Shown here: in pieces, positions 7,476 to 60,055 of the stretch
Layout: each line of letters opens with the position of its first letter
Position numbering within the stretch: position 1 is the stretch's first letter
Source of the DNA: Hygrophila difformis
Lineage: Eukaryota > Streptophyta > Magnoliopsida > Lamiales > Acanthaceae
DNA length: 64,000 nucleotides
Assembly (NCBI GenBank): GCA_030278955.1
Contig: JAOANR010000004.1
Span: forward strand, 15,612,428 to 15,676,427
Direction of reading: 5' to 3'
Made by a program: the position numbers and the translations under genes
The notes under the pieces: generated by a model
What the model saw: the letters and a program-made list of their open reading frames with translations, nothing else
Told to the model about the DNA's origin: nothing
Databases searched by the model: none

Positions 7476-7484
7476 ATCTAATAA

Positions 7485-7600
7485 GAGTTAATAGTTAATT
7501 TAGGCCATAACAAGTAGTCATTTCCACTTTTGAGCCATAACAAGTTTGAGTTATGATTTTAGGCCATAACAAACCACATTTGTTTAATTTTGGGCCATAC
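7485..7600 (+). repeat. Left terminal inverted repeat of the Mutator-like element
   Basis: Begins GAGTTAATAGTTAATTTAGG. It contains iterated GGCCATAACAAG-type motifs at about 7503, 7533 and 7562, with a decayed copy near 7592. Each has a counterpart in the right repeat. Such iterations near an end are typical transposase-binding layouts (inference). Confidence 0.82.
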
Positions 7601-7776
7601 AGACTTTTTAAAATAATAATTGAACCCACCTACTCTCCTTTATTATATTTTGACCCCATCAGTTGACTTATCAACTTTTGCCCTTTTACACTTTGACCCC
7701 AAACTTTAGGTTTTTCATTAAATTTAATCCAATAGCTGCCCATCATGCTTCCGATAATTAAATTAAGCACTAAACT

Positions 7777-7950
7777 TCATACCTTGGCTTTGACCGCCTT
7801 GTTGCCGGGTTTCCTAAGCTTCGGGATTTTACGGACTTCCTCCAACCACGCAGCCGCGACCAATGGTTCACCGATTCTTGGCTCCTTCAGCAACAAACAG
7901 CACAATCCTATTTCGTTTCCTACCTTAGGACGTATCAAGATATGAATAAA
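7777..7950 (-). other. Open, GC-richer stretch; possible captured gene fragment or viral leader
   Basis: On -, about 55 codons are open to a TGA at 7777-7779. The stretch contains GEPLVAAAWLEEVRKIPKLR and is richer in GC than its surroundings. It lies between the left inverted repeat and the viral promoter. It could be a host gene piece picked up by the MULE, or part of the viral RNA leader. I do not recognise the protein. Confidence 0.3.
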
Positions 7951-8212
7951 GGGTTTTTAATAATATTATCGGAGTATTTGGGATATTTGGAAGCCTGGAT
8001 TTTACTGAAGAAATATTAAAAATATTATTCAAACATTATTTCCCCTAATGGAGAAGACATATACTTAGTTCCTCATGGAGGAAGCAAGACTCTTGGGGAT
8101 GCTCCCCATAATATTACAGACACAGAAAGGAAAATTTGCAGAAAGGAAATATTACAAATGTTTTAAAGAGTTGGGAGGATTTTTCGATGCCTTCCATCTG
8201 CTTCAAACTCCT

Positions 8213-8290
8213 TTATTTATAGGCGCCCGCGGACTTCAACCCCGGATTCCAATCTTCCTTTAAATCCTTGTGACGTCACTGCGTTCGTCA
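8213..8290 (-). promoter_or_regulatory. 35S-like pararetroviral promoter: as-1-type element plus TATA box
   Basis: On -, two TGACG motifs (TGACGAACGCAGTGACG, 8290 to 8274) are spaced 12 bp start to start, the spacing of the as-1 element in the CaMV 35S promoter. A TATA box, TATAAATAA (8221-8213), lies about 50 bp downstream. Transcription would start near 8190 and run into the leader, as for a pregenomic RNA promoter. Confidence 0.75.
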
Positions 8291-8470
8291 CTTGGCCTTA
8301 ATTTCCACCGGCTACATTATTGTCCTTTTGGAATTATTGCGTTAGGTGGCTTTTTGTCAACTCTCCACCTTCTCCTGTCGGCCACGTTCTGCCAGCTACT
8401 CTGCCCTTCTTTGTCGGCTTTTAATTATAAGTGTTGCCGACACCTCTCTTTCTTTTACATCCAGCTAATC

Positions 8471-9763
8471 TCACTTTGGCTTGTGAAAGTTTTTTGGACG
8501 TTTCTTCCCTTTGTCCTGTTCGGGTCTGGATTTTTTCTGGGTTAACCGGATCTTTGTACCGAATAGGAGTTTCTCCTGTTCTGCACAATATGGGCATATG
8601 TGGTTATCCCATTGGCCAACATGCATCATGTTGCATGCCTTTTTTCTGGTAGACTCGGTTGCTGGCAACTTGTTTTCCCAGATGAGTAACCTCTTCTTTT
8701 CGAAGGAGGTTTCCGCAAACTCTGTGCTTTTCCATGTTAAAGAATTAACCAGGAACGATACATTTAAATTGTTTGAGAATATTTTAAACGGATATTTAAC
8801 CTTTTCCATCTCGGTGAGACAGACCCAGAATCCCCATGCTCGTCTTGTGGAGATTTCATCTTCGCTGATTGAAGATACCAATGGTGCCTTCTCATCCATA
8901 GACTTAGCTCTGTTGAAGGCAATCATATCAGGTCTCTGTAATTTAATAAATTGGAAGACCGGATAAGAACCTTTTCCGACTATCTCTGGTGCCGCTGAAA
9001 TGAACTTAAGCTCCAGAATATGTCCTCTTTGCAGGTGCGGGTTGTTTTGCCATGATTCATGCACCGCGCTACTTATCCATCCCGGAAGTTTTTCGATTTC
9101 CGGAAACCCTGGTGATGTAGTATGAACAGTTGCTAACGCTCCAAAGTCATACCACTTTCGAACTTCTTCTGGCTTTGATCCTTCGAGCATCCAGACCCTG
9201 TTGTATCTCCCGGATGTCTCAATTACTGTTTTGCTTGGGTTAATTCCCCTTTTGGAAACCAGTTGTTCCCATTTTCCCTGGTAATCCAGCCAGGCTGCAG
9301 ATATGACCTTTTCCTCTGAATTAGCCTTAGAGGTACCTGTCATGGGCCTAAGGTTAATTTCTTCCTCTTTTACCCCAGAGGCTGTGGGTTGACTTGAGCT
9401 TTCGGAAATGTGACTTTCCTCTTGCTCAACATTTTTGTCGGTATCCGACAATGGTTCCTTTGAAGCAGTACTTGAGTCTGCTTCTTTATATGTGACCACT
9501 TTATCTTTTTGGGCACTTTTCTCTTTGTTTACCAGGGAGGCTGATGCTTTCCTGATTGGCTCTAATACTGTTTCCCATAGTGTTGTCATTGCTATATGGG
9601 AGGTTCGTATATTGTTGCGGACCATGTCCACATCGCTCTGTTGTATTTGGCCAGCTGCTCGTGCATTGATTTCGAGCTGTCCAAAATGCTTTGATAGCTC
9701 CTCTAGGTTTTCTCTGAGGTGCCTGAATCTCGTAATGATGGAATCAGCTTCAAATGCTTCCAT
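8471..9763 (-). CDS. Caulimovirid last ORF (position of transactivator/inclusion-body gene)
   Basis: 430 codons, uninterrupted. The ATG overlaps the end of the polymerase frame by 14 bp. The N-terminal 80 residues look helical or coiled-coil. A Ser/Glu-rich linker follows at about 100-145, then a globular part (GKWEQLVSKRG, YNRVWMLEGSKPEEVRKWYD). Near residue 375 a C-N-M-M-H ... C-P-Y-C arrangement could bind zinc, and the tail is Lys-rich. By position it corresponds to ORF VI of caulimoviruses, whose product permits translation of downstream ORFs. I cannot see a clear mini-transactivator motif, so the function is inferred from position. Confidence 0.65.
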   Translation of the reverse strand: MEAFEADSIITRFRHLRENLEELSKHFGQLEINARAAGQIQQSDVDMVRNNIRTSHIAMTTLWETVLEPIRKASASLVNKEKSAQKDKVVTYKEADSSTASKEPLSDTDKNVEQEESHISESSSQPTASGVKEEEINLRPMTGTSKANSEEKVISAAWLDYQGKWEQLVSKRGINPSKTVIETSGRYNRVWMLEGSKPEEVRKWYDFGALATVHTTSPGFPEIEKLPGWISSAVHESWQNNPHLQRGHILELKFISAAPEIVGKGSYPVFQFIKLQRPDMIAFNRAKSMDEKAPLVSSISEDEISTRRAWGFWVCLTEMEKVKYPFKIFSNNLNVSFLVNSLTWKSTEFAETSFEKKRLLIWENKLPATESTRKKACNMMHVGQWDNHICPYCAEQEKLLFGTKIRLTQKKSRPEQDKGKKRPKNFHKPK

Positions 9764-11810
9764 CTCTCGTCAAGAAATCTGCAAGAACATTTTCATGAGA
9801 TTTTATAACATCAATATCATAAGTATAATATTGACATTCAGCCTACCATCTGATAATACGAGCTTTTTCAATTTTTGATTCAAGTTTATTTTTTAGAAAA
9901 GCTCTAACGTTAGTATTATCAACTTTTAATACAAATTTCTTCGCAAGTAAGAATAAAGGCCATTTTTTAAATGTTTTTCATACTGCAAAGAATTCCTTTT
10001 CATTAATGTGCCAGAGTTTGGCTTGTTGTTCAGTGAACAACCCTCCTGTGTATCTACAGGGTTCTTGACCCGTAGTTGTTTTTCTCATGAGCACTCCTGC
10101 CCATCGAAAATCATTGACGTCTGTGTAGACTACCAGCTCATCATCATCTTGAGGTATCGCGAGTTTTGGTAAGCTATTGCAGACTTGCTTTAGTTCACGA
10201 ATTCTCTTGGTATGGATTTCATCCCATTTCCATCTAGAGCTTTCAGTCTCTTTAAGGAGTGGTCTAAAATCCTTTCTATATTTTGCAAGGTCTTTAATAA
10301 ACATACCCGCAAAATTTACAACTCCTAAGAAACTCTGAAGTTGTTTCTTGTCTTTTAATACATCAGGAAAATTGCGGATTTTCTCCACAATGTGTTCCTG
10401 TAACTCTATTCCTGCTTCATCAATTTGAACTCCCAAGAATTCAATTTTGTTAGCAGCGATAGTGGCCTTTTTCTCAGAGAGAACTAGACCTTCCCTGTGA
10501 CATGCATCAGAAAATATTTCAAGATGTTTAATATGCTCTTTAATATTTCGAGATGCAATCAGAATGTCATCTATGTAGACGAACATAAACTCTAGATAAT
10601 CCTTAAATAGATTATCCATCTTTCTTTGGAATATCTGAGGGGCATTAGAAAGCCCCATTGGCATAACATTCCAGATATATTGCCCTTGTGGGGTGGAGAA
10701 TGCTGTGAATTTCTTCGACTCATTCTCCATCTTAATCTGATAGAAACCAGATTTGCAATCAAATTTAGAAAACACTTTAGCACCTTTGATGCAATCAATT
10801 AAGTGTTCTCTACTCGGAATGTAATAACCATCAAACTGTATTATTTTATTAATACCTTGATAATTTATTACCAACCTGGGTTTACCTCTTTTTATTTCAC
10901 CGTGATTTCTTACCAAGAATCCAGGGCTACTGTAGGCTGAGACTCCAGGCTCTATGAGTTTAAGATCGATATGCTCCTTGATAATTTGTTGCATATCTTT
11001 CTTATCCTGCATATTCATTAAGATGGGTTTGTATTGAACATACTCATATTTATATTGTTCTTTTACCTGTAGAGTAGCTTCGATCTTGTTTTTATCCCAC
11101 CATGCCAGAGGATCCTCGTTAAAGTTTCTCTGAATAAGTCTTTTGACATTTTCGAGGGACAATTTAGTTTCTCCTTCAATGTCTAATGAAGTTATATTTA
11201 ATGACTTCATTTCCTGCATCGCTTCTTTGAGGTTTATAATTTCCTCAATAGAAGCTTCATCAAATCCTTGTTGTCTAAAAGACAACAAAGCCTTACCAAA
11301 CTTTCTTTTGTCCTGCATTTTTGGATGGGTTAGTTTGGCATCATTATCACCACGTTTGCTGCGAAATAATATAGGCATTAATCTGTTGAATGCCTTTTCT
11401 GTGCGCAACACCTGTATCTCATTTCCACAACTTGTGGTAAATATTAACAAATTTCTTTTGTTATCTTGAACATATTTTGTAAAGGATTGTATGAAATTGT
11501 TCCCTAACAAAATATCTGCTCCCGTATCATGAAAGTAAATAGGCGGCGTTTTTACCTTATACAAAGGTGTACCGAATGCGCCTCCGATCATGACATTGGC
11601 CTGTCGAATACCCTTATTTAGTACTAAGATTTTTTGGGAAAAATCTCTTCCTGCAATAATGGGTAATGATTCCATAGCTTTGCTAGGGAAAACTCCTGGT
11701 TTTTCCGTGCAAATACCTGATCCTGAATCAATATAAGCTGCAAAATATTCCGACTTATATTGTTCATATATTATCCCTATTGAGATATAAATGGAAAATG
11801 GACTTGTCAT
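9750..11810 (-). pseudogene. Pararetroviral protease - reverse transcriptase - RNase H (broken)
   Basis: Replication polyprotein. A retropepsin is seen as AAYIDSGSG with a partner DILLGNNF. The RT has PRLVINYQGIN, FSKFDCKSGFYQIKM, MPMGLSNAPQIFQRKMD and the catalytic box YIDDILIAS. RNase H begins at LVVYTDVNDFRWAG and includes NEKEFFAV. Two in-frame stops lie in RNase H (TGA 9978-9980; TAG 9843-9845). After them the frame continues to VLADFLTRD and a stop at 9750-9752. No integrase follows, as expected for a caulimovirid. The start is an ATGA overlap with the upstream small ORF. Confidence 0.9.
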
Positions 11811-12163
11811 TTAATTCTGATGGTGTGACCCTTCAGATTAAATTCTATACCATTGTCCTTTCTTACCCATGGTTTATGATTTTCGAGAAAACTTAATCCC
11901 AAAATCATAACCCCATTATCTTTTCCGGCGGTGCCTAAGACTCTGATCTCGTGTCCTGCAATTTCAATTGTTCCTTCATAGGTTCCAATTGATGGCTGCT
12001 GCAAGTAGTATAAGTTATCACATGGAAAATGGTTAATCTTTTCCGTGATGTCGAATATTACTCGTATTTCTTTCCATCCTTCAGGGCATTTTATCTTTAT
12101 ATTATCTACCCCAATGGATTGAGGAGTTAGATCTTTGATGAACTCCTTCCCTTTATATGCCAT
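11807..12163 (-). CDS. Small caulimovirid ORF between movement protein and polymerase
   Basis: 118 codons. It overlaps the movement-protein frame by 11 bp and the polymerase frame by the four bases ATGA, so translation is probably coupled. The C-terminal third contains VMILGLSFLENHKPWV, which resembles the second half of a retropepsin (ILGxxFL). A full protease is already encoded downstream. It may be a degenerate or duplicated protease half, or a clade-specific protein; I do not recognise a known counterpart. Confidence 0.6.
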   Translation of the reverse strand: MAYKGKEFIKDLTPQSIGVDNIKIKCPEGWKEIRVIFDITEKINHFPCDNLYYLQQPSIGTYEGTIEIAGHEIRVLGTAGKDNGVMILGLSFLENHKPWVRKDNGIEFNLKGHTIRIK

Positions 12164-13055
12164 AATTCTGTCTTCCGAAAAAAGTCATACGACTTGCGTA
12201 CTCAATTCTAGCACTCGTTGATCTGTCTAGAATTGGATGATCTGTTATTTGTATGTCTACTCCTCCTAACCTTGGAATCTGGGTAGGATTTGGAGTCATG
12301 ACTTTAGCAAATTCCTTGAAAATTCTAGGAATTTCTATATATTCTTTCCTGAGAAATAAGTCAGAATGATGACTATTGGAAAGTGCATAAGAGATTCTAT
12401 AAGTTATAGAATATGGCCTGTTCCCTTCTTTCATCAGATCTTTTCTTTTAAAATCCTGATGAAGGGTTAGAACTCTACTAAAATCTTGGTCAGCTAAGTT
12501 ATAGGAAATTCTGGGATGTATGTCAAACATTAACTTCCCAGCATATAAATTTCATACTATAGTTCCAAGAAGACCATCTCTAAGGTTATTGATTCTTCTA
12601 TCAGTGACTGATAGATGTAATTCAGAATCAATACCTTCTTTGAAGGTTGCCTTAATTACTACTTCAATGGCTCCTATGTGGATCCATTTCATAGTAATGG
12701 CGATCTCCTCCTTCATTCTGCTTAATTCCTCAAGAATTTCTTCGTTAGGAATTAATTGCATATCCATAACATTACAAGTAAGTTCCATAGGAATTGCAAA
12801 CTCACCTGCACTTACCTTGTAGATGATGTTATGTCTTCTCTGGTTGAGTCCCATCTGGTTAAGAACTCGTCCAATCCCGCCAATTCGGAATCCATCATAT
12901 GGGCTGAGGTTGGAATCTTGTCGCATTATTCTTTCCATGGTTCGATTTGAGATCGTCATCCTTGAAAAGAATCCAGACAGGTTTTCAGTGGTCTGAATCC
13001 TGTCTTCTTCAGTCAGACTCGGTTGAAGATCCATCTGAATATGAGTCCGAGTCAC
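12153..13055 (-). pseudogene. Caulimovirid movement protein, 30K superfamily (one in-frame stop)
   Basis: Cell-to-cell movement protein. Recognisable 30K-type features include the conserved aspartate context LHLSVTDRRINNLRDGLLGT and the following MFDIHPRISYNL. A TGA at 12552-12554 splits the frame in the core. The coding frame is the same on both sides, so this is a nonsense change, not a frameshift. The 5' end overlaps the coat ORF by 47 bp. Confidence 0.75.
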
Positions 13056-14457
13056 TTCTTAATTCTTCCTCGTAGATGCTTTCATCCGAGGGAATGTCCT
13101 CAAACTGATAAACTGGTACCAGCTTTCCATGGTAGACCGCTTCCACGATATCCTCCATGGCTTCGTACATTCGTACCTCACGATTCTGAGGGCAATCGGG
13201 TGAGATATGACCTCTGGCTCCACACTTCCAACAGTTGCAGTCCTTGAAACTTTCGTTGGCTCGGGTATGGGCTCGTCTGAATGTTCTCTTGGATGTTGTT
13301 CTCCCCGTGCTCCTTGCTGCTGAGCTAGTTGAACCTTGGGATGAACTCTTCGTCGTTCCCGTTCTTTGTCCAGTTTTGTATGTTCTGGCCTTGCCCTTGG
13401 ACCACCATGCTCTTCTTCTTCGGAATGGAGGTCTTCTGAAACTCCTACTGTATGAGCCTTGACTCTTCTTCTTTTTCCTCTTTTCTTCTGATCTACCTAT
13501 AGTTGTTGGAAAATCGTTATTTTCACAGCAAAGAGGAGTTCTTTTTATTTTACCTCTTAGTCTTTTGATGTTCTTTTGGGCTGCTGCCTGTTGACACCAT
13601 TCTCTGAGCTTATCCTTTAAGAAGGACATTCTTTGAGCTATTGAGTCCACTGTACCAGGGGGTACTGTGTACGATTGGATCAACATTTCTCTCCATGGGC
13701 TGCAGATCTTTGCAAAGAACATGGGACATGCTACTTCAGCTGTCATTTCACTTCGAAAATAGTATTTACGAAACCAGTAGATATACTCGTTTACTGCGCA
13801 AATACTTCTTAACTCCATACCCAACAGTGCTTGGGTATAGACTTTGATTTTTTCTGTTCTCTGTTCTTCAAAATAACCATCTCCTACAAAATGGGTTTTG
13901 AATAAGAGGCCAAACCTTTCGCAGATTGTGCTTTTGGATTCTCCTTCAAGTATTTGCTCCTTTAAAGCAGCCGTGGAGTTTTTCCAGCCCAGCTTTGCCG
14001 ATCCTTCGAGACTTAGCTCTATTAATCTGACAAAGTTTTCTTTATCGAGTTCCAGGGTGGTTGCTGCAATCTTCATTGAAGCTACCCATTCGTCGATCAG
14101 GTCTTCGATGTTTCGGAAGTCGATAACGTCGAGGTTCAGTGTTATGCCATATGGATTTAATGGTTGTAACATCGTCTTGGCCCACGGTGTGGATTCTGGT
14201 GCTCTACTTGGGTTTCGTCCTGGGTTTCGTCTTGCATTGAGATGCACCTCCGGATACCTGTTCATGTAGAAGTCTGTACTTTCTCTCATTGGGATATCAG
14301 GCGGTTCATCGTGGGTCACGTTGGATCCTGTTCCTTCCGCATAACCCAATTGAAGAACTTCATTAGGTTTTACATTAACCAGATCCATAATCCCAAGTTG
14401 GAAAAATGATTCTGCTAATTCTTGTAGATCTGATAGATCTGCCCTGGAAACACTCAT
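13009..14457 (-). CDS. Pararetroviral coat protein with CCHC zinc knuckle
   Basis: 482 codons, open throughout. Its ATG overlaps the stop of the preceding ORF as ATGA. The central coat region includes LDKENFVRLIELSLEGSAKL and MFFAKICSPWREML. It is followed by a very basic segment (PPFRRRRAWWSKGKART), then CWKCGARGHISPDC (C-x2-C-x4-H-x4-C), and a highly acidic C terminus rich in Ser, Asp and Glu. That order (core, basic, zinc knuckle, acidic tail) is typical of caulimovirid coat proteins. Confidence 0.85.
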   Translation of the reverse strand: MSVSRADLSDLQELAESFFQLGIMDLVNVKPNEVLQLGYAEGTGSNVTHDEPPDIPMRESTDFYMNRYPEVHLNARRNPGRNPSRAPESTPWAKTMLQPLNPYGITLNLDVIDFRNIEDLIDEWVASMKIAATTLELDKENFVRLIELSLEGSAKLGWKNSTAALKEQILEGESKSTICERFGLLFKTHFVGDGYFEEQRTEKIKVYTQALLGMELRSICAVNEYIYWFRKYYFRSEMTAEVACPMFFAKICSPWREMLIQSYTVPPGTVDSIAQRMSFLKDKLREWCQQAAAQKNIKRLRGKIKRTPLCCENNDFPTTIGRSEEKRKKKKSQGSYSRSFRRPPFRRRRAWWSKGKARTYKTGQRTGTTKSSSQGSTSSAARSTGRTTSKRTFRRAHTRANESFKDCNCWKCGARGHISPDCPQNREVRMYEAMEDIVEAVYHGKLVPVYQFEDIPSDESIYEEELRSDSDSYSDGSSTESD

Positions 14458-14837
14458 TCGACTGTTTTCAGGAGATCGATCATAAGCTCTTCTTGTGATT
14501 TCTGCTTTGGAACCATAGTTGCTTTACCTTTTTGATGTAAAGCTTGTACGGGTCCGAATGCATCTCTAATATTGGCTTGGTTATTCTTGGAAGATCCAGG
14601 AATATCCTTCTGCCTTTTCTTGATATCCGAAATGTCAAATTTCAGATTCAAAATCTCTTTCTTTAGATCTTGTAACAATTTCAAAATCTCCTCTGTTGAT
14701 TGATTCAGGTTATCTATTTTTCCAGGTAAAATTAATACCCGGTTACCATAATCTTGAATCGTTTTTTGGATTTCTCTTAAGTCTTATGATAGCTTAGAGC
14801 TATCCGGATCAATTTCTTTCCAGTCAGTTCCTCTCAT
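14454..14837 (-). pseudogene. First caulimovirid ORF, coiled-coil protein (one in-frame stop)
   Basis: About 127 codons from an ATG at 14837, with a TAA at 14784-14786; downstream of that stop the frame is open. The sequence is helical with heptad-like Leu/Ile spacing (LKKEILNLKFDISDIKKRQK). It sits between the primer site and the coat gene and ends in an ATGA overlap with it. A virion-associated or small assembly protein is plausible, but the function is unknown. Confidence 0.6.
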
Positions 14838-15040
14838 TTTCATGAAAGAAATTACTGTTAATAAAATCTTGTCTTATAGACAAGTTCAAGAATTTCCTCT
14901 GGAAATTTCTATTTTTTATTTCCAAAATTTGGAAATAACTCGTTGGTTTCAATTTAAATGAATCCATTAAATAATTAAGTCTTCACCATTAAGAGATAAA
15001 ATATTATAAATAATATAATTAATATGTTCTTCAATAAAAC

Positions 15041-15056
15041 CTAGGCTCTGTTACCA
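15041..15056 (-). promoter_or_regulatory. Pararetroviral minus-strand primer binding site (Met-tRNA type)
   Basis: On -, TGGTAACAGAGCCTAG differs by one base from the common TGGTATCAGAGC core complementary to initiator Met-tRNA. It lies about 200 bp upstream of the first viral ORF. Confidence 0.7.
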
Positions 15057-15199
15057 ATTTTCAAGCGCATTAGGAGTCATTTGCATAATGAAAAATTAAT
15101 TATTTTGAGAAAGGACTAAAGTAAATAAAGTCAAACTTCCTTGGGGTATGAATGAAATAAAGAAAAAGTTGTTGGATTCCTTTATTAATTTCAAATTGG

Positions 15200-15317
15200 T
15201 CCTATAGCCTAAATTTTACAAAACTGTGTTTGTTATGGCCTGTTTTCATAATTGTAACTTGTTATGGGCTAAAAGCGGAATAGCCTCCTTGTTATGGCCC
15301 TTTTTAACATTTAACCC
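15200..15317 (-). repeat. Right terminal inverted repeat of the Mutator-like element
   Basis: Read from the outside inwards on -, it begins GGGTTAAATGTTAAAAAGGG and then shows the same series of GCCATAACAAG motifs with the same spacing as the left end. Confidence 0.82.
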
Positions 15318-15443
15318 ATCTAATAAAATTAAATTAGAGTTGGCGACAGGAAGTTAAAGCGATCATATCATTTTAAAGCAAACTGAGGCAATATAATATT
15401 CATGCCAAATCTTATGGGTCTCGCCCGGCATAACCCAATTAGG

Positions 15444-24503: not shown

Positions 24504-25341
24504 TGACAGGTCCCGATAGAAGAACACTGTAAAACTGCGTTGTGCCCACAACTTGCACACAACTGAAAACAGATAGCAAGGCCAAAAACAGATTGCAGAA
24601 TAAACAAAATAACACAAGTATTTGTTTACCCAGTTCGGATCATCCGATCCTACATCTGGGGGATCCCAATCCAGGCATATTCACTATCAACCAAGGAAAA
24701 ACAGGTAAACCCATCTGTTTACATAGAAACCCCTTCAACCCTTCCACACTAGGACTCCCGATTTGTCACCTAGACTGACTCCAGGAGGGAACAGAGTATA
24801 GCACCTATACCAGATACTAAACCTGCTGAAATTACCCTTCAATCCCAATGCTAGGCTAAGCAAGCTTCTACCCTTGTGATAGCTACTCCCAAATTCAGCT
24901 CAAAAGCACTCAACAATCAATGAACATAGCTCTAAGCATTTCCTAAAGATAAATCTTGCAAAGTAAGAAATGCTAGCTAAGATCTAATAACTATCTCTAT
25001 CAAGAACAAGAAAAAGGTTACCCCTTGCTGAGAAAAATAGCTTGATAGAGATACTCATGAAGAACTTCATATTCTTCCCATTAATCCGTAGCCCTCAATC
25101 TCTCTAGATGTTTTCTGTGTAATGCTGAAAATGTTCCAGCCACCAAATGATTGAGGCAGTACCCTAAAAACGCGGAGGGCACGGATATCCAGGCCCATGG
25201 GCTGGGGAAAAGCCCTAGACAGCTGTCACTCCAACAGCTTTTGTCTTTTCTGCTCCAGGGGATATGTCGTGAATTAGGTTGTGTTCACATCCCTCACACA
25301 ACGATCATCTGCACAAGAGTTTTGAGCACAAAAACCCAACA
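24504..25341 (-). repeat. Sirevirus 3' LTR
   Basis: On - starts TGTTGGGTTTTTGTGCTC and ends CGGGACCTGTCA. It matches 32578-33415. Confidence 0.95.
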
Positions 25342-27549: not shown

Positions 27550-30500
27550 TCAATCCAGAAGACAAAGGCCCAAGCCTCTCCTCAACTCTTCAAAACGGGT
27601 AGAGTCAAGAGGCTTAGTTAGGATGTCTGCCAATTGTGCACATGACGCAATATGTACTATCTCACAAATTTTGTCTTCCACCAAATCCCTTATGAAATGA
27701 AATCTGATATCAATATGCTTACTTCGGCTGTGATTCACTGGATTTTTGCTGATATTAATTGCACTAGTGTTGTCACAATGTACCACAAAAGTATCTTTGT
27801 GAAGACCATAATCCAGTAGCATTTGCCTCATCCATATGAGTTGAGTACAACAATGAGCAGCCGCAATGTACTCTGCTTCAGCTGTAGAAAGTGCCACCAC
27901 ACTTTGTTTCTTGGAATACCAGCTCACAAGGTTATTACCAACATAAAAACATCCTCCAGTGGTCGACTTTCTGTCATCCAAACTCCCAGCCCAGTCAGAG
28001 TCAGTATAGCCTGTAAGTTCGTTGTCAGCACATCTTGAATACCACAATCCCAACTTCTGTGTGCCTTTAATGTACCGCAATATTCTCTTAACAGCTTTCA
28101 AATGTGACTCTTTTGGAGCGGACTGAAATCGAGCACATAATCCAACGCTGAAACTAATATCAGGTCTACTTGCAGTAAGATACAAGAGACTACCAATCAT
28201 GCTTCTATAAAGTTTCTGATCAACTGGGGTGCCAGATTAATCTTTAGACATCTTCTCATGTTGTCCCAATGGAGTCCTCAACACCTTACTGTCCTCCATT
28301 TTAAACTTTTTGAGCATGTTCCCAACATATTTTTCTTGATTCAAGAATATACCCTTCTCAGATTGCTTGACTTGAAGTCCAAGGAAATATGTAAGTTCAC
28401 CCATCATGCTCATCTCAAACTCAGTTTGCATAGAATGAACAAACTCATCTCTTAACGCTTCTGAAGTGGATCCAAATACAATATCGTCTACATAAATCTG
28501 AGCCACAAGTAGATGGTTGTGTTTCCGTTGTACAAACAACGTCTTGTCGACTGTTCCTCTTGTGTACCCCTTCTTTAAAAGATAAGAAGACAATCTCTCG
28601 TACCAAGCACGTGGTGCTTGCTTAAGGCCATATAAAGCCCTTTTCACTCTGTAGACGTGATTTGGAAAGTCTGGACTCTCAAATCCGACTGGCTGAGACA
28701 CATAAATTTCCTCCTTGATTGTTCCATTAAGAAAGGCAGTCTTAATGTCCATCTGAAATAATTTGAATCCGAGAGAACACGCCACGGCCAATAATAAGCG
28801 AACAGCTTCAATCCTTGCAACAGGTGCAAAAGTCTCTTCATAATCTAGCCCTTCAATTTGAGTGAATCCCTGAGCTACCAAACGAGCTTTGTTTCTGACA
28901 ACTACTCCCTTCTCATCAGTCTTGTTTCTGAACACCCATTTTGTTCCAATGATATTAGTGTCTGGAGGTTGTGGTACCAACTCCCACACATCATTTCTCT
29001 TGAATTGTAGCAATTCATCTTGCATGGCGGCTATCCACAATTCATCTTTTAAAGCTTCCATAGCATTCTTAGGTTCAACTTGAGAAACAAAACAGCTCAT
29101 AACATAAAAGGAAAGACTTGCCAGTTCAGTGTAGTCAATTTGTTGCTGTTGTTGACTCCTAGTCTGTCTTGGTGCTTTAGGATCACCAATGATGTCATCT
29201 TGTGAATGATGCTTAAACGCCCTTGGTCCTTCCTTAGGTCCTCTTCTCCTAGGAGCATCAGGTTGCACAGGTGGTTGTACCTCAGGTGTGTCATCGTCAG
29301 ATACTACAACAGGTTCAGTGGCAGATACGTCTGGTTGAACGTGTTGTTGTGGCTGAGTAGTACACACAATGTCATCATCATCATGATGTTGAGGTCTCAC
29401 CACAGGCATAACATCATCATCATCTCTAATAACAACTGGTCTATCATCAAAGACAACATTCATAGACTCGATAACTTTCTTTGTTCTGTTGTTATAAATC
29501 CTGTAAGCTCTTGAATTAGTGGAATAACCCAAAAAGATCCCTTCATCAGACTTTGAGTCAAATTTTCCAAGAGGCATCCGATCATTCAGCACGTAGCAAG
29601 TAGTCCCAAACACATGAAAGTAGGAAACATTTGGAGTTCTCCCTCTCCAGATCTCATAGGGTGTGTTCTTTGTATGAGGTCTAAAGAACACCCTATTAAT
29701 GATATAGCAAGCTGTGTGAACCGATTCAGCCCAAAATTCCTTCTTCAATGTGCTAGCATGCAACATAGATCTGGCCATCTCTTGCAGAGTCCTGTTCTTA
29801 CGCTTTACAACCCCATTCTGCTGTGGAGTCTTTGGGGATGAGAATTCATGAGAAATTCCATGGTTGTGGCAGTGTTGTTCAAACAACCTATTCTCAAACT
29901 CCTTTCCATGATCGGTTCTGATGCAAGCAATCTTAGAATCTTTCTCGGTCATAAGCTTCAAAGCAAGCTTCTCATAGACAGCAAATGCTTCATCCTTAGT
30001 TTTCAGAAAATCTACCCATGTGTATCTTGAGTAATCATCTACGCACACAAAGATATATCTCTTCCCACTGAGACTTGGAACTTCGGTTGGCCCCATCAAG
30101 TCCATATGTAATAATTCCAAGCATCTTGTAGTTTGGACTTGATCAGTGAGTTTGTGTGAAGCATGAATCTGCTTACCCTTCGCACAATCTCCACAAACAA
30201 TATTCTTCACAACAGGTAGTTTCGGCATCCCACGCACAACACCAGAATTACTGATTCTAACAAGAGACTTATAATTCATATGACCACACTTCCTGTGCCA
30301 AAGCTGCATTTCATCCATATGTGTAGACATAGCCAAGCTAGATCTATCTTTCAGCGTGTAGCAGTTGTTCTTGGATCTACCACCCATCATAACACATTTC
30401 TTTCCCTCATTTAAAACTTTGCATGACTCTTTTGTGAACCCCACAAAGTGATCATCATCACAAAGTTGACTGATTGAAATAAGATTGGTAGTAAGCCCAG

Positions 30501-32523
30501 AGACATAATATACCTTGGAGAGTATAGACAGATTTTCATCTTGAAGTGTCCCATACCCAGAAATCCTCTTCCTCACTCCATCACCAAAGATGACTTCACC
30601 ACAGTCTTCTCTAATGAATGTCTTGAATAGCTTCTTATTCCCAGTCATGTGACGTGAACAACCACTATCAAAGTACCACTTCTTGCTGGATGACAATGCT
30701 TTCTGAAGTGAAAGAATCACCAAACATTTTGCTCGAATTTTCTTAGGCATCCATTCCCTTTTAAACTTGATACGTTTCTGTAGTTCCTCTGTAGGCCACA
30801 CAATGGGTTTACCACGTAATATATCTCGAACCAATATATTACAGGTGTCAACATTGTGTCCAGGAAATTTGCAGTATTCACAACAACGTTGAACTTTAAC
30901 CGGGCAGTCATCAACATCCATATTTAGACCACTGTTATCAACAACCTTCTTGACAGGAGCAGCATGTAACATGCCACCTTTCACAAATTTCCTTGTTGAA
31001 GTAGACGTAGAAGCTTTTCCTTTATGATAGCCAATTCCAGTAAGATCTGTAGATGCTTTCCCATTGCATATCATCTCATCTAACTTCTCCTTATTCTTCA
31101 TCATGGCATCATAATGATTGACTTTAGTTAACAACTCAAGATTAATGGACATGAGAGCTTTCTTTTCTTCTTCTAGACTCACTAAAGAGCTTGTAAGATC
31201 AGCTAATTCACATTTCAATTTCTGAATCTCTTCATCTTTAACTTCACAAGCAGCATTTAGATCATCAACTTTAACCAAAAGTTTTTTATTCTCACCAAGC
31301 GCACACTTGTGATCCTCCTTTAGCTCAGCAAAGGCTTCTGCAAGCTCATCAAATTCCAGATCTTCTCCTTCTTCTTGGTCCTCATCAGAGGTGGATGAGT
31401 TTGAAGCATCATCCTTACCATGAGCAGTAAAAGCAATCTCACCATCTTCTGACTCTCCTTCACTATGTTGTGCCTCTGATGTGTCACTGACCTCTTCATC
31501 ACTGAGAGTTGCATTCAATGCTTTTCTTTCTCTCCTTTTAGCAGTGGGACATTCAGACTTCTTGTGCCCAACACCTCCACAATCATAGCACTGGAGTTCC
31601 CTAAATGATTCCGGTAGATCAGAAAGAACAATTTTCCTGGTCTTTTTCTGTTCATTGCTTGAGGAACTGCTTTTGTAGGGTTGTTTCTCTGTTGTGCGTT
31701 CCTTGCCCTTACCACGATCAAATTTGCCTTTACCAAAAGATTTAGCTCTTTTGTTCTGCAAGATTCTGGACAGCTTCTTGGACAAATAAGCTTTCTCTTC
31801 TTCAGAAATACCATCACCTTCTTCTACTTTGAATGCAAGTGCCTTGGATTGGATTTCCTTCTTCTCCAAGTGGATCATCTCATAAGTTCTCAGAATACCA
31901 ATAAGATTATCCAGTGACATGGTCTTAATCTTGTCCATTTCTTCAAGAGCAGAAATTTTAGACGAATATTTCTCAGAGACAGTTCGAAGCATTTTCCTCA
32001 CAAGAATGTTGTTATCATACTTTAATCCAAGGAGGTGTGCTTGATTAACCAGATCCTTGAATCTTTCAGCATAAGAAGTAATGCTTTCATCATCTTGCAT
32101 CTCCATTCTGTCAAAGGCAGATTCAATACGTTGCAGCTTGGTAGAACGCACATCATCAGATCCTTCATGTGCATTAGAGAGTGAAGTCCAGGCTTCATAA
32201 GCGGTAGAGCATGTCGAGATCATCTTATATTGTCCTTCATCGACAGCATTAAATATAGCATTAAGAGCAGATGCATTTCCTTGAAAAAGAGCTTTCTCCT
32301 TAACAGAGTACTCCTCATATGGTGTAGCCTCATAGGTGACAATAGCTTGTTCACCAGCCCCATCTCTAATTTCCTTCACTGGTTCCTTATACTCAGTCAA
32401 CACAGCTTTCCATGATTCTGGACCAAGAGATTTTAGAAAGATCAGCATCCTATTCTTCCAATAACAATAGTTTGAGCCATCAAACAGGGGAGGCCTTGTA
32501 GTAGAGAATCCTTCACGATTCAT
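27550..32523 (-). pseudogene. Sirevirus gag-pol polyprotein, one in-frame stop
   Basis: 1657 codons from MNREGFSTTRPPLFDGSNY to a stop at 27550, with a single TAA at 28237-28239. Gag has FDGSNYCYWKNRM, the UBN2-type region, and the zinc knuckle CYDCGGVGHKKSEC. A long acidic coiled-coil insert follows, then a second CCHC-like CCEYCKFPGHNVDTC. The protease has WYFDSGCSRHMTG. Integrase has an H/C zinc region (HRKCGHMN, CGDCAKGK), DLMGPTE and RTDHGKEFENRLFEQHC. The RT has FQMDIKTAFLNG and the catalytic YVDDIVFGST. RNase H (after the stop) has GYTDSDWAGSLDDRKSTTG and STAEAEYIAAAHC. Apart from the stop all catalytic motifs look intact. Confidence 0.95.
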
Positions 32524-32563
32524 CTTTAAAGATCGAGTTCGAAAAATACCAGAAAGAACTCCC

Positions 32564-32575
32564 GCTCTGATACCA
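32564..32575 (-). promoter_or_regulatory. Sirevirus primer binding site
   Basis: TGGTATCAGAGC on -, two bases inside the 5' LTR end; complementary to initiator Met-tRNA. Confidence 0.92.
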
Positions 32576-32577
32576 AT

Positions 32578-33415
32578 TGACAGGTCCCGATAGAAGAACA
32601 CTGTAAAACTGCGTTGTGCCCACAACTTGCACACAACTGAAAACAGATAGCAAGGCCAAAAACAGATTGCAGAATAAACAAAATAACACAAGTATTTGTT
32701 TACCCAGTTCGGATCATCCGATCCTACATCTGGGGGATCCCAATCCAGGCATATTCACTATCAACCAAGGAAAAACAGGTAAACCCATCTGTTTACATAG
32801 AAACCCCTTCAACCCTTCCACACTAGGACTCCCGATTTGTCACCTAGACTGACTCCAGGAGGGAACAGAGTATAGCACCTATACCAGATACTAAACCTGC
32901 TGAAATTACCCTTCAATCCCAATGCTAGGCTAAGCAAGCTTCTACCCTTGTGATAGCTACTCCCAAATTCAGCTCAAAAGCACTCAACAATCAATGAACA
33001 TAGCTCTAAGCATTTCCTAAAGATAAATCTTGCAAAGTAAGAAATGCTAGCTAAGATCTAATAACTATCTCTATCAAGAACAAGAAAAAGGTTACCCCTT
33101 GCTGAGAAAAATAGCTTGATAGAGATACTCATGAAGAACTTCATATTCTTCCCATTAATCCGTAGCCCTCAATCTCTCTAGATGTTTTCTGTGTAATGCT
33201 GAAAATGTTCCAGCCACCAAATGATTGAGGCAGTACCCTAAAAACGCGGAGGGCACGGATATCCAGGCCCATGGGCTGGGGAAAAGCCCTAGACAGCTGT
33301 CACTCCAACAGCTTTTGTCTTTTCTGCTCCAGGGGATATGTCGTGAATTAGGTTGTGTTCACATCCCTCACACAACGATCATCTGCACAAGAGTTTTGAG
33401 CACAAAAACCCAACA
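32578..33415 (-). repeat. Sirevirus 5' LTR
   Basis: 838 bp, same length and inner ORFs as the 3' LTR; bounded on the right by TATAC. Confidence 0.95.
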
Positions 33416-49074: not shown

Positions 49075-51400
49075 TGTAACACCCCGGATTTGGTAACCCA
49101 GGCCGGGACGCTACCGCCACACCCTTCCAAACAAGACCCGATTAAATCGAGTTTGTTTAAAAGGATGCTAAGGCTTAAGTTGCATCATCGACTTAAAAAT
49201 ATTTAAAACCATTCAAATAAGCCCGAATTTAATCAGAGTATATCACGCATAATGATAATAATAAGCAGTGCGGAAGCAAAAATAAACAGGGCCAAAACAT
49301 GCGGCCAAAACCAGAGTCTAAGTCCAATGCATAATTTAAAATAAATAAAATGCGACAAGTCTTCTTTTTAAAACAAAGTGGAAATCCCATCCCTCCATGC
49401 GATGCTTACTCTGCGAAATCTGAAAGGAAAAATAAAACAACAATTTATCAGTACAAAGGTACTGCGTAAGTTAATATATAGCACAACGAATTTTAAAAGT
49501 TTTAGGAGAATATACAAAATAATATATTTATTTAAAAGACGAGTAGATAAATTAATTAAAAATTCTTACACATATGCCACGAACATTTACCAATGTTAGT
49601 TATGATCGAGGACACCCCATTAACATATCCTAGGGACGAACCCACAGGACCAACCTTTGGGACTTTATACCCACAAGGACTCAAACATATCCTAGGGACG
49701 AACCCTTGGGATCAACCTCTGGGACTCGTACCCACGAGGTAAGTGCATGCAGCGGACCCTATACAGACACACTCCGGAGCCCTAGATAACCCATACGGAT
49801 ACATCTAGGAGTATAGACTCATACATCACAATAATCAATGCCGTTTTGGCTATAAAAGAGGGGGCGACATAATTCACCACATTGGCATCCCACTCGATCA
49901 AAACTTACAAAGTTTTAAAACCACATTTTATCATTTCATAATATTCACAACATGTTCAGATTTCATATATATCCAAAACCGAGTAACAATCGACTCGTAG
50001 TTCATCGAATAATCAAAATAGCATTTACCGATTAAAAATGCCATTACAACAGTTTCTGAAATCGCATTTAAAAATGCAGTAAACGATTTTTAAAAATTCT
50101 GGAAAAATTACAGTAGCTAGAAAACATCAAAATAAGCATTTTTCATAGAAATAGCCATCTCAAAATTCGGACTCTAAGTAGGTCATTTTAATCGATTTCA
50201 GAAAGCTATTGAAATTCAAATTCTATTACTTCAGTAACTTCGACCACAGTGAACTCAAAAATTCATAACAATTCCATACATGCTCCAAAAATCACGAAAT
50301 TTTGCAGGGATGTTCTAGACACATATTAGAACAAGTTTCATGAAGACATCAATCACTAAAAACGACCATAGGCAAGAGTAAATCGAACAACAAAACTGAC
50401 TACATACATACATTAAATCTGTTCCCAAATGCGCAGAAAATACCAGATCGAATTTGAGTGACCAAAACTTGTCCAAAAATTATAAAAATTTACAGAGAGC
50501 ATCTTTAGGACGTTAGGAACAAGTTTCATTTTGGAAGTTTCTCCTAAAAATGTACGGATCATGGTCGAATTCATAGAACAATAAGATTGGTCACAAGAAA
50601 ACCCTATTTGACAGATTTTATAAGAAATAGAGATGATCCAATATCTCGAGTTATACTCAACCAAAACTCCTAAAAATCGACGTGCACAATACTAACTTAC
50701 TTGAGATGAGTTTAGGATCAAAAATCTTCTTGGAGGAATTCTGGAAAACGACCAACTCGACCCCAACAATCAACACTTCTACCGAATGCACCTATTATGG
50801 AGTTGTTGGAGGAAATTCTCAATTCTAGGACAAGGGATTCGAATCTAAGACCAAGGAAATGAAGTAGAACTCTTACCTACACGTAGGAGAAAGGTTTGGA
50901 CCACTTGAACACGTCCAACTCTCTGCCAAGGATGATGAACAACTCACAAAACTCTCACTACTCTCTCTTGAACTTAATTTTCGGATGGGATGCAAATGAG
51001 TGAAATGGAGGCTGAGTAGGGGCTATTTATAGAGGGGTAATTGCTCCAAAAGCTGCCATGAGGTAGTGGGAATGTGAAGGAACAAATTCTAACCCATAAC
51101 CCCCGAATTAATCCCCTCAATCATCATCCAAAACCCCCACTCTCCCATGACTTCCATAGGATCCCCTTGGTGCCCAAGTTCCATCATTGAGCTGACTTTG
51201 TGGGACTTTATTACACCCAAAACCTATCCAAAATCATCCCCACACATCCTCCAACGTCTGGAATTCAAATTGGAGTCGTTTGGGGTCGCCCACCACCAAT
51301 TCATGGCATGAAACGCATGGAGCGTTTTGAATCTGCCATAACAGCAGAGTGGCGCGCTGGTGGCGCGCACCGCGCGGCCACCGCGCGACCATCTGCTGTC

Positions 51401-51442
<42 letters not shown>

Positions 51443-51638
51443 ATTATGATTTTAATCTCTTAAAAATCATAATATGAATTATCCGAGATTTTTGGGATAA
51501 TTCGATACATCTATCCCGAGTTGCGATTATCCGAAATATTTAATTCCGTTCTCTCGGAATTAATTCGATTTCGATAAATAAATCCAAATTCTTAATCTTC
51601 GGATTTTAAAACTTAATGTCGATTTCTCGGGTATTACA
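49075..51638 (-). repeat. Chromovirus 3' LTR (young element)
   Basis: On - TGTAATACCCGAGAAATCG ... CCGGGGTGTTACA. It contains an A run of about 35 on - (T run near 51402-51438). Confidence 0.95.
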
Positions 51639-57492: not shown

Positions 57493-59818
57493 TGTAACAC
57501 CCCGGATTTGGTAACCCAGGCCGGGACGCTACCGCCACACCCTTCCAAACAAGACCCGATTAAATCGAGTTTGTTTAAAAGGATGCTAAGGCTTAAGTTG
57601 CATCATCGACTTAAAAATATTTAAAACCATTCAAATAAGCCCGAATTTAATCAGAGTATATCACGCATAATGATAATAATAAGCAGTGCGGAAGCAAAAA
57701 TAAACAGGGCCAAAACATGCGGCCAAAACCAGAGTCTAAGTCCAATGCATAATTTAAAATAAATAAAATGCGACAAGTCTTCTTTTTAAAACAAAGTGGA
57801 AATCCCATCCCTCCATGCGATGCTTACTCTGCGAAATCTGAAAGGAAAAATAAAACAACAATTTATCAGTACAAAGGTACTGCGTAAGTTAATATATAGC
57901 ACAACGAATTTTAAAAGTTTTAGGAGAATATACAAAATAATATATTTATTTAAAAGACGAGTAGATAAATTAATTAAAAATTCTTACACATATGCCACGA
58001 ACATTTACCAATGTTAGTTATGATCGAGGACACCCCATTAACATATCCTAGGGACGAACCCACAGGACCAACCTTTGGGACTTTATACCCACAAGGACTC
58101 AAACATATCCTAGGGACGAACCCTTGGGATCAACCTCTGGGACTCGTACCCACGAGGTAAGTGCATGCAGCGGACCCTATACAGACACACTCCGGAGCCC
58201 TAGATAACCCATACGGATACATCTAGGAGTATAGACTCATACATCACAATAATCAATGCCGTTTTGGCTATAAAAGAGGGGGCGACATAATTCACCACAT
58301 TGGCATCCCACTCGATCAAAACTTACAAAGTTTTAAAACCACATTTTATCATTTCATAATATTCACAACATGTTCAGATTTCATATATATCCAAAACCGA
58401 GTAACAATCGACTCGTAGTTCATCGAATAATCAAAATAGCATTTACCGATTAAAAATGCCATTACAACAGTTTCTGAAATCGCATTTAAAAATGCAGTAA
58501 ACGATTTTTAAAAATTCTGGAAAAATTACAGTAGCTAGAAAACATCAAAATAAGCATTTTTCATAGAAATAGCCATCTCAAAATTCGGACTCTAAGTAGG
58601 TCATTTTAATCGATTTCAGAAAGCTATTGAAATTCAAATTCTATTACTTCAGTAACTTCGACCACAGTGAACTCAAAAATTCATAACAATTCCATACATG
58701 CTCCAAAAATCACGAAATTTTGCAGGGATGTTCTAGACACATATTAGAACAAGTTTCATGAAGACATCAATCACTAAAAACGACCATAGGCAAGAGTAAA
58801 TCGAACAACAAAACTGACTACATACATACATTAAATCTGTTCCCAAATGCGCAGAAAATACCAGATCGAATTTGAGTGACCAAAACTTGTCCAAAAATTA
58901 TAAAAATTTACAGAGAGCATCTTTAGGACGTTAGGAACAAGTTTCATTTTGGAAGTTTCTCCTAAAAATGTACGGATCATGGTCGAATTCATAGAACAAT
59001 AAGATTGGTCACAAGAAAACCCTATTTGACAGATTTTATAAGAAATAGAGATGATCCAATATCTCGAGTTATACTCAACCAAAACTCCTAAAAATCGACG
59101 TGCACAATACTAACTTACTTGAGATGAGTTTAGGATCAAAAATCTTCTTGGAGGAATTCTGGAAAACGACCAACTCGACCCCAACAATCAACACTTCTAC
59201 CGAATGCACCTATTATGGAGTTGTTGGAGGAAATTCTCAATTCTAGGACAAGGGATTCGAATCTAAGACCAAGGAAATGAAGTAGAACTCTTACCTACAC
59301 GTAGGAGAAAGGTTTGGACCACTTGAACACGTCCAACTCTCTGCCAAGGATGATGAACAACTCACAAAACTCTCACTACTCTCTCTTGAACTTAATTTTC
59401 GGATGGGATGCAAATGAGTGAAATGGAGGCTGAGTAGGGGCTATTTATAGAGGGGTAATTGCTCCAAAAGCTGCCATGAGGTAGTGGGAATGTGAAGGAA
59501 CAAATTCTAACCCATAACCCCCGAATTAATCCCCTCAATCATCATCCAAAACCCCCACTCTCCCATGACTTCCATAGGATCCCCTTGGTGCCCAAGTTCC
59601 ATCATTGAGCTGACTTTGTGGGACTTTATTACACCCAAAACCTATCCAAAATCATCCCCACACATCCTCCAACGTCTGGAATTCAAATTGGAGTCGTTTG
59701 GGGTCGCCCACCACCAATTCATGGCATGAAACGCATGGAGCGTTTTGAATCTGCCATAACAGCAGAGTGGCGCGCTGGTGGCGCGCACCGCGCGGCCACC
59801 GCGCGACCATCTGCTGTC

Positions 59819-59859
<41 letters not shown>

Positions 59860-60055
59860 ATTATGATTTTAATCTCTTAAAAATCATAATATGAATTATC
59901 CGAGATTTTTGGGATAATTCGATACATCTATCCCGAGTTGCGATTATCCGAAATATTTAATTCCGTTCTCTCGGAATTAATTCGATTTCGATAAATAAAT
60001 CCAAATTCTTAATCTTCGGATTTTAAAACTTAATGTCGATTTCTCGGGTATTACA
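57493..60055 (-). repeat. Chromovirus 5' LTR (young element)
   Basis: 2563 bp, colinear with 49075-51638 at a constant offset of 8418 up to the long A run, where the one-base length difference most likely lies. Confidence 0.95.
59441..59450 (-). promoter_or_regulatory. TATA box of the young chromovirus 5' LTR
   Basis: CTATAAATAG on -, the best TATA candidate in the LTR. The 3' LTR has the same box near 51023-51032. Confidence 0.6.

Follow-up and report, generated by a model that had tools for sequence, protein, structure and literature searches.

A caulimovirid element in Hygrophila difformis lies between terminal inverted repeats (TIRs) that resemble those of a Mutator-like DNA transposon (MULE), and raises the question whether the virus was carried there by a transposon, fell into one by chance, or has the inverted ends as a part of its own genome. 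The element was found in a stretch of 64,000 nucleotides (GCA_030278955.1, contig JAOANR010000004.1, positions 15,612,428 to 15,676,427, forward strand), which is called the window here and whose own numbering is used throughout. It occupies 7485-15317 (7833 bp), with the virus genes on the minus strand. The element is a defective copy of a caulimovirid lineage which probably has TIRs of the DNA-transposon type built permanently into its genome and owes its insertion to a transposase supplied in trans. An earlier note on this DNA had proposed a MULE with the virus as cargo, or else a viral integration into an old MULE.

The left TIR (7485..7690, plus strand) begins with GAGTTAATAG and belongs to a type designated T1; the right TIR (15110..15317, minus strand) is its inverted copy and has CATTTAACCC as its end. 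Alignment of 7487-7686 with 15315-15110 gave 71.6% identity over 208 columns (E 2e-18), and a TIR length of about 206 bp. The inverted ends described in the earlier note are real and did not fall to background similarity when aligned by program; the length of about 115 bp given there was too small. The local score of the pair was 111, against a mean of 19 for 1978 random pairs from the window; three of these pairs scored higher (127, 138, and 183), and are probably other repeats of the window. Weak extra similarity inside the TIRs was marginal, being reached by 52 of 2000 shuffles. Each end contains three iterated GGCCATAACAAG-like motifs spaced 29-30 bp apart (7503..7573 on the plus strand at the left; 15229-15299 at the right). 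Allowing one mismatch, six such motifs occur in the window, where 0.35 are expected, and none of 100 shuffles reached six; the iterated motifs of the earlier note were confirmed. The element is flanked by two identical copies of ATCTAATAA (7476..7484 and 15318..15326), which form a perfect 9-bp target-site duplication. Long TIRs and a 9-bp duplication are the features of a MULE, and the window element has both.

The interior is viral. Pfam identified a caulimovirid gene set, including coat protein (exactly at the cut-off), CCHC knuckle, movement protein (MP), Peptidase_A3, RVT_1, and RNase H. On the minus strand, a small coiled-coil-like open reading frame (ORF; 14454..14684), without a Pfam match and of putative role, lies upstream of the coat protein with its CCHC knuckle (13009..14457; PF22909, PF00098). 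These are followed by the MP in two ORFs (12153..13055; PF01107 in either piece), an ORF of 118 aa between the movement and reverse transcriptase (RT) genes (11807..12163), the protease-RT-RNase H ORF of 610 aa (9978..11810; PF02160, PF00078, PF17919), and the transactivator/viroplasmin (TAV) ORF of 430 aa (8471..9763). The 118-aa ORF is conserved in Sesamum proteins, with 65-72% identity in the best 15 of 90 hits (among fetched proteins). The TAV ORF had no Pfam match above the cut-off. Its structure model (mean pLDDT 62) resembled transactivator/viroplasmin folds in a search of viral structures, with 13 matches at E<=0.001 and TM-scores of 0.26-0.49; 11 of the 13 are named caulimovirid TAV, ORF VI, or inclusion-body proteins, and two are unnamed. 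No PDB structure matched the model at E<=0.001. The TAV has homologues in Lamiales. The named RT relatives are from Sesamum (best 120 of 878 listed), and the TAV relatives add Perilla, Phtheirospermum, and Phlomoides (best 120 of 134 listed). The RT query gave 11 pattern matches and no relatives among viral contigs.

The signals around the genes are also those of a caulimovirid. A putative primer-binding site, TGGTAACAGAGCC (15056-15044, minus strand), differs at one position from the tRNA-Met site consensus. A TATA-box-like CTATAAATAAAG (8211..8222, minus strand) and TGACGTCA (8271-8278, minus strand), both recognised by eye, may belong to the viral promoter, and the viral leader extends downstream of it (7741..8210, minus strand). 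The 7833-bp element shows the protease-RT-RNase H, MP, coat protein, and genome size (7-10 kb) of the Caulimoviridae, and also their tRNA-Met-like primer site, promoter (by eye), structured leader, and transactivator. This agrees with the earlier description of caulimovirid content from primer site to promoter. The window copy is a near-complete caulimovirid but a defective one, with the MP match divided between two ORFs and an RT frame that stops within RNase H. One piece of the leader (7775-7945, minus strand) is G+C-rich and has a frame of about 57 codons without a stop. It was considered as a captured host exon, and this was rejected because the piece is also present in a copy with ends of a second type (the T2-type outer copy, described below); it is more likely a piece of the viral leader itself.

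The whole assembly (915 Mb, 246 contigs) was searched for further copies. The copy counts given here as first-look candidates are unscored search candidates, of which only a part was then scored. The left TIR gave 978 first-look candidates, and the 40 of these that were scored were 98-100% identical. The outer 42-mer of the TIR occurs 197 times and the 41-mer across the joint of TIR and leader 531 times, both with at most three mismatches; the reversed controls occur nowhere. The genome holds hundreds of relatives of the window element. The 20 best of the 40 scored left-TIR matches, excluding the window, were taken as a TIR-ranked sample. In 19 of them the TIR continues into the viral leader beyond 8184. 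The exception is L006, in which the match stops at window position 7868 (L006 position 1884 on). The right TIR was recovered in 12 copies, in 11 at the expected place and in one behind an insertion. Perfect 9-bp duplications, all different, flank ten of these 12 two-ended copies, and the chance level for such a match was 14 in 200000 random 9-mers from the fetched loci. At L002 (C15:41491096-41494301), one element copy is nested in the RT gene of another.

The same joints at many loci, with different 9-bp duplications, mean that TIRs and virus insert as one unit in the copies sampled. This is the outcome that the earlier note had asked for as proof of mobilisation. A chance integration of the virus into an old, immobile MULE would account for the single locus in the window; it is refuted by the same joints and different duplications elsewhere, and can hardly be credited any longer.

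The TIRs were also found when copies were not chosen by them. Twenty further copies were selected through an RT protein search, in which 51 of 24,660 first-look candidates were scored; the sample lies near the top of the list, and includes only two of ten copies with equal score. At the expected 3' end (271 bases, one end per copy), all 20 have TIR homology (E<=1e-4), and in 18 of them it reaches to within three bases of the outer end. Besides these 20, three copies from the RT search, on C9, C107, and C10, were read at both ends. The C107 copy has the same two TIR ends as the window and is 81-83% identical to it there. The C10 copy (C10:31963088) has a T2 end, described next, at one side, and its second end was not found. 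On contig C1, the 11 T1 matches listed, with 0-1 mismatch, all run on into the viral leader, as shown by coordinates for seven and by sequence for four. Among the TIR matches examined, a limited sample, neither a virus-free member of the TIR family nor any other cargo was met. The case of related MULEs empty at this joint, with the virus present only in the window, was not borne out by the matches examined.

A second TIR type (T2) bounds a diverged lineage, with 518 first-look candidates and at least 96% identity in the 40 that were scored. In all six T2 loci fetched, including that of the query, the TIR meets the virus at window position 7727. The inner TIR edge and its joint to the leader lie at 7691..7740 in the window, and the similarity of T2-type copies to the window stops at 7727-7737. 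The sole T2 copy in which both ends were read has a possible 11-bp duplication (by eye). The right arms of T1 and T2, with the inner edge, share a similarity reached by none of 500 shuffles. The left arms are more weakly similar (two of 500), and the crossed arm pairs gave four and 31 of 500. TIR1 and TIR2 look homologous from these alignments. The TIRs have diversified together with the virus in the copies sampled, and seem to belong to this virus lineage constitutively. The window left TIR is 98.1-98.5% identical to that of 19 copies, and the right TIR 97.6-98.6% identical to that of ten of 11 copies and 89.8% to the eleventh, all in copies chosen by left-TIR identity. A comparison of this 98% with a dS of 12%, as a sign of constraint on the TIRs, was dropped since this choice biases it.

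Whether the virus is passive cargo can be judged from its proteins. Ratios of dN to dS were controlled with the two other reading phases. The RT comparison covered 1749 bases; L056 was dropped for poor alignment, and L057 had no match. Between the window and 11 copies, RT gave dS 0.120, dN 0.011, and a ratio of 0.09 (controls 3.39 and 1.20); the T2-type outer copy against all gave 0.19 (controls 1.13 and 1.16). The end of TAV gave 0.17 for the window against five copies (controls 1.31 and 1.98), 0.34 for the five among themselves, and 0.15 for the T2-type outer copy against all. Across the two types, TAV of six T1 and four T2 copies differs by dS 0.403 and dN 0.035, a ratio of 0.09 (controls 2.22 and 1.60). 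Between the window and one further copy, dS and dN were 0.111 and 0.021 in the coat gene, 0.126 and 0.010 in RT, and 0.069 and 0.010 in the first MP piece; the second MP piece had no synonymous changes. The viral proteins of the copies sampled have been under purifying selection along the replicating lineage. The low ratios between sublineages indicate that this lineage needed its proteins.

Pack-MULEs are known for long TIRs, 9-bp duplications, and cargo other than a transposase. A viral genome captured once by a MULE, and then copied by the transposase as passive cargo, would fit the TIRs of about 200 bp, the 9-bp duplications, the movement as a unit, and the lack of a recognised transposase inside. 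It would also fit the T2 copies, which show no clear constraint among themselves (TAV ratio 0.86). Cargo of this kind evolves without being needed for copying, and this is contradicted by the strong purifying selection between sublineages (0.09 for TAV of T1 against T2, and 0.09 for RT). With TIR1 and TIR2 lineages separated by dS 0.40 and dN 0.035, passive MULE cargo is unfitting. The absence of clear constraint in settled T2 copies is the pattern of endogenous viruses and not of passive cargo. TIR homology in 20 of 20 RT-sampled copies, and the failure to meet other cargo or an empty element among the TIR matches examined, also speak against a Pack-MULE, which is distinctly improbable. The earlier proposal is borne out for mobilisation as a unit; "cargo" is not the best reading of the virus, given the TIR homology at the end read in all RT-sampled copies, the purifying selection, and the lack of virus-free members among the TIR matches examined.

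The preferred reading, a virus lineage with transposon-type TIRs as a fixed feature, is also supported by signs of recombination near the primer site. The T2-type outer copy has T2 ends and a body 92-96% identical to the window, where other T2 copies are 79-84% identical. Diagnostic sites were defined between the window's own family (L025 left out) and this outer copy. The window copy agrees with the outer copy at 18 of 22 sites in 14826-14995, and with its own family at 32 of 33 sites in 15061-15317, the latter being required by its T1 end; the sites in 14601-14825 are mixed, five of nine agreeing with the outer copy. The window copy is a mosaic, and its switch, located somewhere from 14995 to 15064, falls on the primer site or next to it. 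The primer site is the start and end of minus-strand synthesis. Template switching during reverse transcription would explain both mosaics, the window copy and the outer copy.

The position of the TIRs leaves another explanation to be considered, in which the inverted ends were not taken from a MULE but are the leader hairpin of the virus itself, and the linear DNA is inserted at the tip of this hairpin by some other activity of host or virus. The TIRs adjoin the leader stem and the primer site, and are nested with the stem arms. The two arms (7992-8061 and 14976-15047) are complementary, with a score reached by none of 1000 shuffles; the leader piece 7700-8065 folded alone was uninformative (z -0.83; 21 of 100 shuffles equally stable). 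No MULE with these TIRs was met in 30 transposase loci, which also favours a viral hairpin. The exact shared ends and the fixed 9-bp duplication point instead to a DDE transposase, and the evenly spaced motifs resemble protein-binding iterons. A Pfam search of seven viral ORFs revealed no DDE domain. This explanation is unlikely. Their length, their ends, and the 9-bp duplications are the features from which the TIRs appear to be of MULE origin. No transposase gene was recognised inside the viral genome (Pfam of the viral ORFs, with the 118-aa ORF searched at E<=0.01 only). A genome search with PF10551 gave 2395 candidates, of which 150 were scored. Many of these loci have equal scores and a 353-aa frame, suggesting a young, much amplified MULE transposase family.

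A possible life cycle can be outlined for a lineage with fixed TIRs. The linear copy has its TIRs within the leader region, next to the primer site; circularisation would bring them together close to the tip of the leader hairpin. Since the promoter points outward through the left TIR, the layout of a single linear copy would not allow a full-length RNA with terminal redundancy. The template for such RNA would be a circle in which the TIRs are joined, and replication would proceed through this circle, then viral RNA, and then viral RT. A MULE-type transposase of host elements would recognise the iterated TIR motifs and insert the DNA. Inserted copies would perhaps be released again by excision. 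Whether the lineage routinely borrows a host MULE transposase as its integrase in this way, with an RT-copied circle, cut-and-paste insertion, and perhaps release by excision, is an evenly balanced matter.

Several observations weigh against the proposed lineage with TIRs and a borrowed transposase. Two of the 12 two-ended copies (L003/L010 and L038/L025) have no duplication. The right TIR was not found in eight of the 20 TIR-ranked copies, where six were followed 8 kb further, L006 in two further 2-kb stretches, and L002 not at all. The C9 copy from the RT search has T1 ends and an imperfect duplication (eight bases, shifted by three), and the flanks of the C107 copy are A-rich and non-identical. 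Distant copies without TIRs could exist, given the 51 of 24,660 candidates scored and the single end read. The dN/dS values are pairwise counts made without a tree, and some contrasts are weak: RT of 11 young T1 copies among themselves gave 0.35 (controls 0.73 and 0.64), and the 0.86 for TAV within T2 stands beside controls of 0.54 and 0.55. The mosaic could also stem from gene conversion, and a single site, 15034, would set the switch just beside the primer site and not across it. None of the 30 PF10551 loci fetched, of the 150 scored, has these TIRs within 1.5 kb. An exact head-to-tail TIR1-TIR1 joint does not occur in the assembly; the circle remains a proposal.

The window also contains other young repeats. 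Identical 838-bp direct repeats (24504-25341 and 32578-33415) surround a copia-type frame without internal stop (28237-32754), and make up an LTR retrotransposon of very recent origin. Two further direct repeats, 2.56 kb long (49075-51638 and 57493-60055; 99.96% identical), are probably the long LTRs of another very young element. A tandem duplication of about 370 bp (1211-1586 and 1589-1956; 97% identical) lies upstream of the PRP3 gene. For the neighbouring ERF gene, identity to proteins of Paulownia and Sesamum is 68%, and the top-scoring hit is a Hibiscus protein (60% over 66%). From such protein relatives the host was judged to be a member of the Lamiales other than Sesamum.

Compared with known systems, the window family shares long TIRs, 9-bp duplications, and non-transposase cargo with the Pack-MULEs, and differs from them in that its cargo is a complete, replicating set of genes, kept by purifying selection and alike in kind in each copy sampled. 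It resembles the endogenous caulimovirids (florendoviruses, petuviruses, and others) in gene set, size, high copy number, and the lack of a recognised integrase; it differs by exact TIRs and 9-bp duplications, and a search for exact tandem TIR1-TIR1 joints was negative. Passages of the literature describe the known endogenous caulimovirids as without LTRs, so that their boundaries are hard to define (PMC10741241), and as frequently bordered by TA repeats or arranged in tandem, with a "speculative" integration mechanism (PMC10377300). The propagation of endogenous pararetroviruses is likewise called unknown or speculative in passages of reviews (PMC10377300, PMC10175614). TIRs would give such viral elements the exact boundaries that their annotation is missing, and a TIR-ended virus offers a concrete, testable route for the multiplication of integrase-less caulimovirids in plant chromosomes. 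For Banana streak GF virus, reported as two allelic copies next to a Ty3/Gypsy element, help of a transposable element in integration is proposed in a passage of PMC10377300; the proposed help is alike, and the difference is the TIR homology on every copy sampled here. No report of a TIR-ended pararetrovirus was met in the titles, abstract openings, and passages of the literature searched. A likeness in structure is seen in Teratorn and the Teratorn-like herpesviruses, in which an entire viral genome lies between DNA-transposon ends and is amplified in the host genome, and Teratorn is called the first fusion of a cut-and-paste transposon with a DNA virus (passages of PMC10175614). Teratorn is a 180-kb herpesvirus joined to a piggyBac-like transposon including its transposase, whereas the window element, a plant virus of 7.8 kb that replicates by reverse transcription, has MULE-type ends and no recognised transposase. 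It would represent, after Teratorn, the second kind of fusion between virus and transposon and, as far as the parts of the literature searched show, the first to involve a reverse-transcribing virus. The borrowed-transposase life cycle, if true, would unite two great classes of mobile elements.

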